Positions 13,387 through 36,735 of a stretch of 36,799 bases of DNA are shown piece after piece; the stretch's first letter is position 1; each line of letters starts with the position of its first letter. Source of the DNA: a virus; the IMG/VR virus record IMGVR_UViG_3300042905_003071, positions 1-36,799 of that record, one strand, 5' to 3'. The position numbers were made by a program, and so were the translations under genes. The notes under the pieces are model-generated. The model saw nothing but the letters and a program-made list of their open reading frames with translations, did no database searches and was not told where the DNA came from.

Positions 13387-13754
13387 CAGCCGCGCCACCC
13401 CGCCCGGCCATGTCGAAAGCCCGCCGCCTTCGCTTGTTCACCCGTGACGGTGGCCTCTGCGACATCTGCAAGCGGAAGGTTCTAGCCGGTGAAGCGTATG
13501 AACTAGACCACATCATCCCGTGGGCTTTAGGGTTTGACGACAGCGATGAGAACTTAAGGCTGGTCCACAAAACCTGCCATCGGACGGACAAGACGGGAAG
13601 CGACGTTGCCCGCATTGCCAAGGCCAAGCGCCAAGGCCGGGAGACAGGCCAGCAAGCTAGGCGATTAGTCAAAGGCGGTTCAATCCCGTCCCGCCCGTTC
13701 CCAAAGACTAAAACCACATGGCCAAAGCGGCCTTTTAAGGGGAGAGAGACTTGA
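13383..13754 (+). CDS. HNH endonuclease (123 aa)
   Basis: A stand-alone HNH nuclease. It begins with RRLRLFTRDGGLCDICKR, whose first zinc knuckle half is Cys26-x2-Cys29. ELDHIIPWALGF carries the catalytic Asp-His (42-43), NLRLVHKTCH has the Asn and Cys65-His66, and a basic C-terminal tail follows. This compact type often sits in phage replication or packaging clusters and resembles host HNH proteins rather than the homing type seen elsewhere in this genome. GTG start, coupled to rusA. Confidence 0.88.
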   Translation: MTAAPPRPAMSKARRLRLFTRDGGLCDICKRKVLAGEAYELDHIIPWALGFDDSDENLRLVHKTCHRTDKTGSDVARIAKAKRQGRETGQQARRLVKGGSIPSRPFPKTKTTWPKRPFKGRET

Positions 13755-14116
13755 GACAGACAGTCGCCAACATCTTGCGGGAGGTCGCGTTAGAACACGG
13801 CCTAACCGTCGCCGCGCTAATCGGGCAGGGTCGCTCGCGTCATATCGCATGGCCGAGGCAGGAGGCTTATTACAGGGCCTTCACCGAGTGCCCGCACCTT
13901 TCTTATCCAGAGATTGCCCGGCGCATCGGTGGCCGTGACCATACAACAGTTTTGCACGGGGTCCGCGCTCATTGCGAACGGAACGGACAGACATACGCTC
14001 ACGCCGTTCGGATTAGAAAGTATGGCGGGCGAGACTTTGCCTTCTATGCGCTGGCCAAAGGTTACGAGCGGACGATGGTGACCGCCAGATCGGGAGGCGA
14101 ATATGCGTCAGCCTAG
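13751..14116 (+). CDS. DnaA domain IV-like DNA-binding protein
   Basis: A 121-aa protein starting at TTG 13751 (overlap TTGA). The central region, RQEAYYRAFTECPHLSYPEIARRIGGRDHTTVLHG, is the domain IV helix-turn-helix of the replication initiator DnaA, including the GRDHTTVLHG signature that reads DnaA boxes. The AAA+ ATPase domain III is absent. It could recognise origin sequences of host or phage, either to recruit the host replisome or to compete with host DnaA; a regulator role is equally open. About 30 C-terminal residues have no known counterpart. Confidence 0.85.
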   Translation: MRQTVANILREVALEHGLTVAALIGQGRSRHIAWPRQEAYYRAFTECPHLSYPEIARRIGGRDHTTVLHGVRAHCERNGQTYAHAVRIRKYGGRDFAFYALAKGYERTMVTARSGGEYASA

Positions 14117-14717: not shown

Positions 14718-15200
14718 GTGGGTGCAGCTATTCTACAGTTTCCCGTGAGAGAAGCAAATACGTTTGATGAAGCTTGGCAGGTTCGCGCTGGCCAGATGCG
14801 TAAGCGCGGAGACGGTCAGGACAAAACCCGCAAACTCTGGAACCGCCATGCCGCTAAAGTCGGTCAGGAGCGGCTTCTAGAGGCTTTGCGGGGCTATCTG
14901 AAGGAGAAGGAACCGACTTGCGGTTTCTGCGGTCTGAGCGTTTGGCTAAACGGCGAGAAATACGATCATTGGCTTCCGTCTGCGGAGGCTATAGCAAAGG
15001 TTGAGCGCCCGCCCTATCCGCAACGCCCGGCGCTGATAGCGGCCCTCGGGGAGCCGTTTGTGGTTAGCTATATCGACCCTGCAACAATACACCCGGACGG
15101 GTGGATTACGCCTGCGACGGGCTTCGCAAAGGGTAAGCTAGTCGAGAAGGCAAAAAGCCTGAAAGCGTCCGGCATCATGGGCATCCGCTCCAAGCCTTGA
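14718..15200 (+). CDS. Hypothetical 160-aa protein
   Basis: GTG 14718 is preceded by a clear GGGAGGGAG about six bases upstream. The N-terminus (MGAAILQFPVREANTFDEAW) and a basic helical stretch (RKLWNRHAAKVGQERLLEALRG) are followed by CGFCGLSVWLNGEKYDHWLPS with a Cys-x2-Cys pair. The C-terminal half is Pro/Gly-rich and unlike any family I can name. Its basic helical first half and its place after DNA-binding genes are compatible with a replication accessory role, but no motif proves it. Confidence 0.7.
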   Translation: MGAAILQFPVREANTFDEAWQVRAGQMRKRGDGQDKTRKLWNRHAAKVGQERLLEALRGYLKEKEPTCGFCGLSVWLNGEKYDHWLPSAEAIAKVERPPYPQRPALIAALGEPFVVSYIDPATIHPDGWITPATGFAKGKLVEKAKSLKASGIMGIRSKP

Positions 15201-15228
15201 CGACAAAATTTTTTGAGCGCAAAAGAGA

Positions 15229-15259
15229 GGGGCCGGTCTGTGGTGACAGTCCCGGCCCC
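15229..15259. terminator. Strong hairpin after the 160-aa gene
   Basis: Arms GGGGCCGG (15229-15236) and CCGGCCCC (15252-15259), with an inner CTGT/ACAG stem, form a GC-rich hairpin 28 bases past the 15200 stop. The plus strand continues with a weak CTTTT; the minus strand continues with CTCTCTTTTG. It may end rightward transcripts and also late leftward ones. Confidence 0.5.
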
Positions 15260-15693
15260 GTTGGGTGCTTTTGCCGAGCAGCCCGTCTAGACGGCTAGAG
15301 ATATAGCCGCATGGTCGAGCCGAAGCAAGCCTAGCGATTGATGTGTCGCCCCCGGTTTGCATGGCTCCCGTCCCCAAAGCCAAGCGATGACGACCGCGCG
15401 AACTTTGCTCTCAATCAAATGAGGGATTTCCGAGCGCCTCGAATGGCCCTGCGGCCTGAGAGGGGAACCTGACCTATCGACCCCCTACGCTGACCCGGCA
15501 AATTTTGGGTGGGGAGTGAGCTGGCCCTCATTAAAAGGCAGTCAGGCTATACGGTCGAGGCAGAAGCAGGCTCCCAACCGCGTCCTATCGGTAGATAGGG
15601 GAGTTCGCGGAAAGCGGACTATTGCCCAAAGCGTAAAAGCAGCACGCCAGCACCTAACCCCAATGTTTTTTAAGGGAAGGGTGGAGATAGGTG

Positions 15694-15721
15694 TTTACAT
15701 CCCCTAGCGTCGGTGTATGTT
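15694..15721 (+). promoter_or_regulatory. Candidate second rightward promoter (leaderless)
   Basis: TTTACA (15694-15699, five of six matches to TTGACA), a 16-base spacer and TATGTT (15716-15721) end six bases before ATG 15728. There is no Shine-Dalgarno. Two similar blocks, GTGTTTACATCCCC at 15691 and ATGTTTACCCC ending at 15727, overlap the two boxes and could be tandem regulator sites. Confidence 0.5.
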
Positions 15722-15727
15722 TACCCC

Positions 15728-15940
15728 ATGACCAGCCGCCGCACATTTAAAAACCAGTCAATGCAGCGCCTTTATGATTTGCGCCGCGAACAGCCGCCTA
15801 CCAGCCGATTTGGCGGAGGTGTTTGTGTTGCGTATTTTTCGGGCTTTGACCGTCCGGCTGCACCTTCGCGCTTCGTTCGCAACTCGCTTGCCTATGCCGC
15901 TTGGGCAGCAGGCGTTGACAATGCAAAGGCCGCTAAATGA
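15728..15940 (+). CDS. Hypothetical 70-aa protein
   Basis: Begins MTSRRTFKNQSMQRLYDLRR and later has GGGVCVAYFSGFDRPAAP. Basic at the start, aromatic in the middle, with no known family. ATG 15728 is chosen because the promoter boxes end just before it; an in-frame start five codons earlier would lie inside the -10 box. The stop overlaps the next start as ATGA. First gene of the second rightward run. Confidence 0.62.
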   Translation: MTSRRTFKNQSMQRLYDLRREQPPTSRFGGGVCVAYFSGFDRPAAPSRFVRNSLAYAAWAAGVDNAKAAK

Positions 15941-35712: not shown

Positions 35713-36735
35713 CTAGGCCGCACCGGCAACTTCTTCAAAAGCTGCGCGGATGTCGTCCTCGATTGATCCATTGGACTTGGGAATACGGGTTTGACCCGGA
35801 GACCCGGTGACACTGACAGCCGCCCGTCGCGCCTGCGCCGCCTTGTCTTGCACGGGAGCCGCCGGGGCCTGCGCGGTTTGCAGGAACGGGCGAATATCCG
35901 GCCTCATCCAGCAAGCCATTTCGTATGCTTCCTTCAGGTCCGATGCTTTCCCGTTGTGCAAGAGGACCGCCATATCATCGCGGACGTTCTCAAAATACAG
36001 GTTGGCAGGGTCGTTCTGGAAGGCGTCGATTTGGCTGACGATAGGCGCGGTTTGCGCCGTCTGGACTTGGCTTTGCAGGACTTGGAGTTGCTGCTTGAGC
36101 GCTGCAATCTCTGGGTGGCTGTCTCGCGCGGGCTGGGCCTGGTATGGCTGTCCCTGCGGCTGGGCCGTGTTCAAATTCACGCCATACGAACGGGCCAGAA
36201 ACTCAAGCCCTTGCATCGGATTCTTTTCAAGCAAGTCTTGTGCTGCAAGCAGCGTCTTGACCGCGTGAACCTCATCCATCCCTTGCGCGGCCCATTGAGC
36301 GCGGCGAGGGGCAAGCACTTGTTCCAGCGGTTCATACCGCTTCACTTCCTCAGACTTGCGCCGCAGTCCGTGATCGATTTCCTGTTCCCGCTTTGCAACA
36401 GCCTGTTGCACTTCCGGTGGCAGTTTATCGAACGTGGCCTTAGCCGCAGGTGACCATGAAGCCGGGGCGCGGATGGCGAGCTTGACAGCAGGGTCCGCGA
36501 CTGCCTCCGAGGGCTGGTCGGGAGTATCTTGCACGGTTTCGGCTGCTTTGGCAATAAACTTGCCGTCAGGGCCTCTTACGCGCCCATCCGCTGCCTTTTC
36601 GCCGTCATCGTGGGGCGTTTCCGCCTCGATAATCGCTTCGGGTGCAACCACCACTTCTTCAGCAGGCGCAGGCTCAGGCGCGTTACCGCTAACCTCAGCC
36701 ATTGCAGCCCGAATGTCGTCTTCCATGTCGCTCAT
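35713..36735 (-). CDS. Scaffold (capsid assembly) protein
   Basis: A complete 340-aa protein. The N-terminus (MSDMEDDIRAAMAEVSGNAP) is acidic and Pro/Ala/Glu-rich. A central conserved part, RAPASWSPAAKATFDKLPPE, is followed by a long charged helix (KREQEIDHGLRRKSEEVKRY). The C-terminal third has a Gln-rich coiled coil (EIAALKQQLQVLQSQVQTAQ) and a closing helix. The short EDDIRAAFEEV at the end repeats EDDIRAAMAEV at the start. Scaffolds guide procapsid assembly and leave before packaging. It lies directly before the major capsid gene. Confidence 0.85.
   Translation of the reverse strand: MSDMEDDIRAAMAEVSGNAPEPAPAEEVVVAPEAIIEAETPHDDGEKAADGRVRGPDGKFIAKAAETVQDTPDQPSEAVADPAVKLAIRAPASWSPAAKATFDKLPPEVQQAVAKREQEIDHGLRRKSEEVKRYEPLEQVLAPRRAQWAAQGMDEVHAVKTLLAAQDLLEKNPMQGLEFLARSYGVNLNTAQPQGQPYQAQPARDSHPEIAALKQQLQVLQSQVQTAQTAPIVSQIDAFQNDPANLYFENVRDDMAVLLHNGKASDLKEAYEMACWMRPDIRPFLQTAQAPAAPVQDKAAQARRAAVSVTGSPGQTRIPKSNGSIEDDIRAAFEEVAGAA

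Follow-up and report, generated by a model that had tools for sequence, protein, structure and literature searches.

The gap at positions 15201-15727 of the window, the whole 36,799-base virus record that was analysed, almost certainly encodes a structured RNA gene of approximately 400 nt. This gene, termed type A here, was delimited by homologs and covariation to 15225-15630 on the + strand (ends approximate). The best explanation overall is that it is, very probably, an accessory RNA gene of phages that works in trans and has its own promoter. Judged by sequence comparison, it is a structured phage RNA of ∼400 nt that is absent from Rfam and recurs in unrelated viruses and in prophages of alphaproteobacteria. 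Neither the RNA nor its relatives had an Rfam match at gathering or relaxed E-value thresholds, and no description of it was found in open-licence papers.

The window encodes a phage terminase, portal and major head protein, together with a Rad52-type recombinase and a protein with a DnaA C-domain (13751-14116). The gap spans ∼510 bases, from the stop of the upstream gene (14718-15200) to the start of a small ORF at ∼15713-15731; the stretch from 18.7 to 19.9 kb of the window is likewise without clear genes, so the initial claim that no other gap exceeds 300 bases may not hold. The initial annotation considered 15201-15727 to be non-coding, and this was borne out by the absence of a conserved reading frame. 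The ORFs inside the gap (15516-15707 on the + strand and 15138-15383 on the - strand) show no conservation, and most core indels would break any frame: 168 of 207, tallied across pairs of phages, have lengths that three does not divide. Three members (L061, L076 and L088) do read ‘RNQMRDFRAPDWPC..’ in one frame, but a coding role was rejected because an inserted base or a stop disrupts this frame in the window, L007, L008 and L065. Searches of the window found neither a tRNA nor an Rfam family, and the gap alone gave chance-level Rfam matches only. Single-sequence folding was mildly unusual (z of -2.3 for the gap and -2.6 for the RNA), so folding alone is insufficient and it is the comparative evidence that demonstrates the structure.

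Homologs of the type A RNA were found in nine other viral contigs, the Caulobacter phage DMCA and ten alphaproteobacterial chromosomes. The DMCA copy was detected by blastn against phage records, with 69.5% identity over 278 nt (window 15341-15618, E 3e-14). Viral contigs obtained through neighbouring proteins contain the RNA block at 98% (L002), 95% (L007), 92% (L008) and 76% (L032) identity, while patterns built on the conserved 3′ part retrieved L061, L065, L076, L079 and L088. The Afipia clevelandensis copy came to light when genome contigs were scanned, and whole-genome searches with either A. clevelandensis DNA or the covariance model R1 as query added nine further chromosomal members (L142, L143, L166 and L200-L205). 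Matches of at least 50 bits were present in 7 of 397 genomes sampled from the order of Afipia, Afipia included, and 2 of 385 genomes matched in a class sample. None of 369 genomes from the class of a Rhodoferax genome matched, in a search of limited sensitivity that scored six candidates per genome. BLAST of plasmids and of one family's genomes found little, and the pattern TTTCCGANCN{2,3}NCNGANTGGNCC, which was poorly designed, matched no members. Among the rejected candidates, L018 was a weak model match (15 bits) apparently within coding sequence, and L206 and L207 (43 and 27.5 bits) were shortened and lay upstream of an ffh-like gene. All carriers found here were alphaproteobacteria or presumed phages of these bacteria.

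The covariation check proposed for relatives used A6, an alignment of 11 members built from sequence alone, and a model of 78 pairs. In this model 92.5% of cells were paired, compared with 37-47% in slid-partner controls, 41 of the 78 pairs had changed on both sides, and none of 500 shuffles matched any of five measures, with the proviso that the structure models derive partly from the same sequences used for counting. Compensatory changes thus exceed the controls, as is asked of a conserved structured non-coding RNA. In 21 members aligned by model fitting, with the doubtful L206 and L207 among the rows, 29 of 44 pairs covaried. When all column pairs were scanned against a tree-based null, pairs of the helices P1b, P4 and P14 and the pseudoknot PK1 ranked highest, all of them 100% paired. 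The top tree-aware covarying pair was 15240-15247, in the 5′ hairpin, and the top group also includes a pair between the loop of this hairpin and 15347 that forms part of PK1. Paired positions held 56 G-U pairs versus 10 A-C mispairs, a bias that a DNA cruciform would not show and that therefore indicates a + strand RNA and not a DNA signal. A shape so strongly conserved probably has a real job.

At the 5′ end, helix P1 and its inner helix P1b (15229-15259) form a hairpin with a covarying stem (GGGGCCGG, GGCGGTGG, GGTGCGGG and GGGCCGGG, among others); this is the strong GC hairpin of the initial annotation (GGGGCCGG/CCGGCCCC), and it is indeed conserved. The loop of P1 supplies the 5′ strand of PK1 (GGUGA, 15242-15246), for which five of five pairs form in 10 of 11 members, and the 3′ strand (UCGCC, 15346-15350) is supported by both the tree-aware scan and the pair counts. 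Complementarity is maintained through GGUGA/UCGCC, GGCAC/GUGCC, GACAG/CUGUC, GGCUA/UAGCC, AGCGG/CCGCU, GGAAG/CUUCC and other combinations; the Afipia pseudoknot was missed by the alignment, and its strands UGAUGA and UCAUCA can be seen by eye. Between the hairpin and the 3′ strand of PK1 lies a linker (15260-15339) that is variable in A6 and mostly missing in L088. The palindrome noted earlier at 15280-15308 sits within this linker and is not conserved.

Downstream, helix P3 (15362-66/15378-82) and the crossing helix PK2 (15369-72/15386-89) show partial covariation, with 70% and 82% of cells paired, respectively, and some of the losses arise from misalignment. The long-range helix P4 (15391-96/15552-57) closes a multi-branch domain that contains P5 to P11 and, by pairing counts, forms all six pairs in all 11 members, with both-side changes at five of the six; P5 is 100% paired. 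The 3′ domain (15559-15626) is composed of P12 (15559-63/15622-26), P13 (15578-82/15606-10) and the hairpin P14 (15583-89/15594-600), and ends at ∼15626-15630. P14 is paired in 11 of 11 members with five covarying pairs, P13 is almost invariant, and P12 is without covariation. Two adjacent small stem-loops had been proposed at 15584-15620. The first (15584-15599) covaries and corresponds to P14; the second (15603-15619) competes with P13, which is better supported by the relatives.

A likely promoter for the RNA lies at 15197-15226 (+ strand), where TTGACG (15198-15203) overlaps the stop of the upstream gene and is followed, after ∼18 nt, by a weak -10. TTGAC occurs 30-35 nt ahead of the RNA in 5 of 11 members (the window, L007, L008, L032 and L076), compared with a background of 5% per 60 nt. 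L088 has no clear promoter, and its RNA may be excised from an mRNA. No terminator of the type A RNA was evident. Beyond the RNA, a separate element at 15635-15725 (+ strand) combines an inverted repeat (CACCTAACCCC...AGATAGGTG) with the promoter of the downstream operon. The promoter predicted at the end of the gap matches the consensus (TTTACA to TATGTT, 15694-15721); it is probably distinct from that of the RNA and serves the next operon. The block at 15635-15699 is 90-95% identical in L003, L004, L009, L011 and L013, relatives in which the type A RNA was not found. The inverted repeat, at 15646-15693 with a T run, is kept in relatives ahead of the next promoter and is a possible operator.

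The setting of the RNA varies widely among its carriers, and no protein partner constant to them was identified. The window copy lies in the early region, the L088 copy is intergenic among structural genes, the Afipia copy is in an islet, and prophage copies on at least three chromosomes (L208, L210 and L211) sit beside terminase or portal genes. In DMCA the RNA occupies the strand opposite to the annotated genes; two of these, DMCA_068c and DMCA_069c, overlap it (record positions 36190-36671) and are probably spurious. A gene of 160 residues upstream of the RNA recurs in seven loci and also precedes relatives without the type A RNA. In three chromosomal copies a small gene with the shared motif ..QPxTAVYxN.. 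is located directly upstream (L208:8032-8448, L209:8088-8612 and L211:8085-8474). The Afipia ORF L122:1983-2576, which begins directly after the RNA, has relatives on Microvirga, Methylobacterium and Acuticoccus plasmids and matches nothing in Pfam or PHROG. Around the RNA, flanking repeats of the target-site type did not exceed background.

In close relatives of the window, a TTGACG promoter is again present at this slot, followed by other long stretches of non-coding sequence. One, type B, joins its 5′ part to either of two 3′ parts (L003:6697-7135, L009:4961-5420, L006:6594-7050 and L011:6786-7246). Another, type C, was found at L005:6851-7310, L010:6741-7200, L004:6708-7022, L193:1531-1839, L189, L190, L192 and L196. 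It has the core GGUCGGUUAACGRCRGCGG; of 67 predicted pairs, 34 carry changes on both sides across eight sequences, a count made without a slid control. L003, L004, L006 and L009 have a common 5′ part and differing 3′ parts, and L004 is a chimera of a type B 5′ part with a type C 3′ part that is 90.5% identical to L005. Single-sequence folding gave z values of -3.8 for L010 and about -5.0 for L009. Against Rfam, the only matches to the slot RNAs of relatives were adjacent tRNAs: tRNA genes adjoin them on the opposite strand in L009 (4872-4936, -, 33.5 bits) and, weakly, in L003 (6603-6664, -, 25.5 bits), both unreported by ARAGORN. A direct repeat of 8-14 nt, with copies ∼96-103 nt apart, lies on either side of the 3′ hairpin in type C RNAs and in the RNA of L003; it was seen in L003, L004, L005, L010, L192 and L193, and its sequence varies by phage (CCATTGAGCTTATC, AAGGGTCTG, AGTTTAAT). 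We tentatively suggest, at somewhat less than even confidence, that this phage lineage keeps a slot for large structured RNAs, in which the family of the window and at least two others take one another's place downstream of a similar promoter and trade their 5′ and 3′ domains.

The initial annotation offered an origin, a structured RNA or a packaging or regulatory region as reasons for the gap. The structured RNA is strongly supported by the covariation, the pseudoknot, the G-U over A-C asymmetry and the unrelated contexts. A DNA element, whether replication origin or packaging site, is most improbable. The nearby DnaA-C-domain gene and the three prophage copies close to terminase or portal genes would suit such an element, but the gap contains no DnaA-like box or iteron family, cumulative GC skew, checked as had been proposed, has no turning point there, G-U far exceeds A-C in the pairs, and close relatives have other RNAs in place of this one. 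In the window a packaging site is also unsupported by location, as the terminase is ∼9 kb distant. That same distance weighs on the equally improbable proposal of a phi29 pRNA-like packaging RNA, which the phage-encoded structure and the prophage copies near packaging genes might otherwise recall; moreover, backbones with the same flanking genes lack the type A RNA and carry other RNAs, and the carriers include phages of quite different architecture. An ornate pseudoknotted fold with a scattered distribution could also belong to a self-splicing intron or mobile ribozyme. This is very unlikely, given that Rfam returned no group I or II match, no gene was interrupted in the loci read (in the window and L088 the RNA is intergenic) and no linked endonuclease or reverse transcriptase common to the carriers was seen.

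The type A RNA is more likely to act in trans than in cis, and we consider it unlikely that it serves the downstream operon (15713 onward) as a cis-regulatory leader or riboswitch. In the window the RNA does precede a + strand operon, and the Afipia ORF starts at L122:1983, directly past the RNA. However, the downstream genes are wholly different among carriers, the DMCA RNA faces annotated genes of the other strand, and in the window a distinct promoter block, conserved also in relatives without the type A RNA, stands between RNA and gene. The differing flanking genes thus argue against a cis leader and favour a mobile accessory RNA gene. For such a gene, host RNA polymerase would transcribe the RNA from its own TTGACG promoter (15198), and the product would act in trans as a folded RNA, whether as the scaffold of an RNP, an RNA-only assembly or a ribozyme. 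As an accessory module passed from phage to phage, it would aid the virus inside its host. Because the swapping of different RNAs in one slot of a phage backbone resembles exchangeable cargo, a role in phage-host conflict or host modulation can be guessed at, though we hold it to be doubtful. A dedicated slot, if true, would be the RNA counterpart of the hypervariable accessory-gene slots in phage-host conflict, and interchangeable RNAs within it would point to one function that different RNAs can fulfil.

Large structured RNAs are uncommon in bacteria, and several have proved to be ribozymes or RNA machines. The type A RNA has no Rfam match, yet it spans unrelated phages and prophages, and the copy in DMCA, a phage of Caulobacter vibrioides CB15, makes expression, structure and knock-out directly testable. 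The phi29 pRNA is likewise a phage-encoded structured RNA; however, its fold and size presumably differ from those of the type A RNA, which has no terminase link in the window. Closer likenesses are found in GOLLD and ROOL, two large RNAs of phages and prophages whose function is unknown and which assemble into RNA-only cages (PMC12286853). The type A RNA resembles GOLLD in its phage or prophage location, large ornate fold and 3′ region that is more conserved than the 5′ region (PMC12286853). GOLLD often lies beside tRNA genes, and here tRNA adjoins the sister slots of L009 and, weakly, L003, with none in the window; many GOLLD members exceed 800 nt, whereas the type A RNA is ∼400 nt. With ROOL it shares an ornate, pseudoknotted phage or prophage RNA with no known protein partner (PMC12286853), although it is shorter than the 659-nt ROOL example and differs in that its carriers here are all alphaproteobacteria or their presumed phages. 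The Rfam covariance models of GOLLD and ROOL did not match the type A RNA at gathering or relaxed E-value thresholds. With no detectable kinship to either, the type A RNA would nonetheless be comparable with GOLLD and ROOL as a trans-acting accessory RNA.
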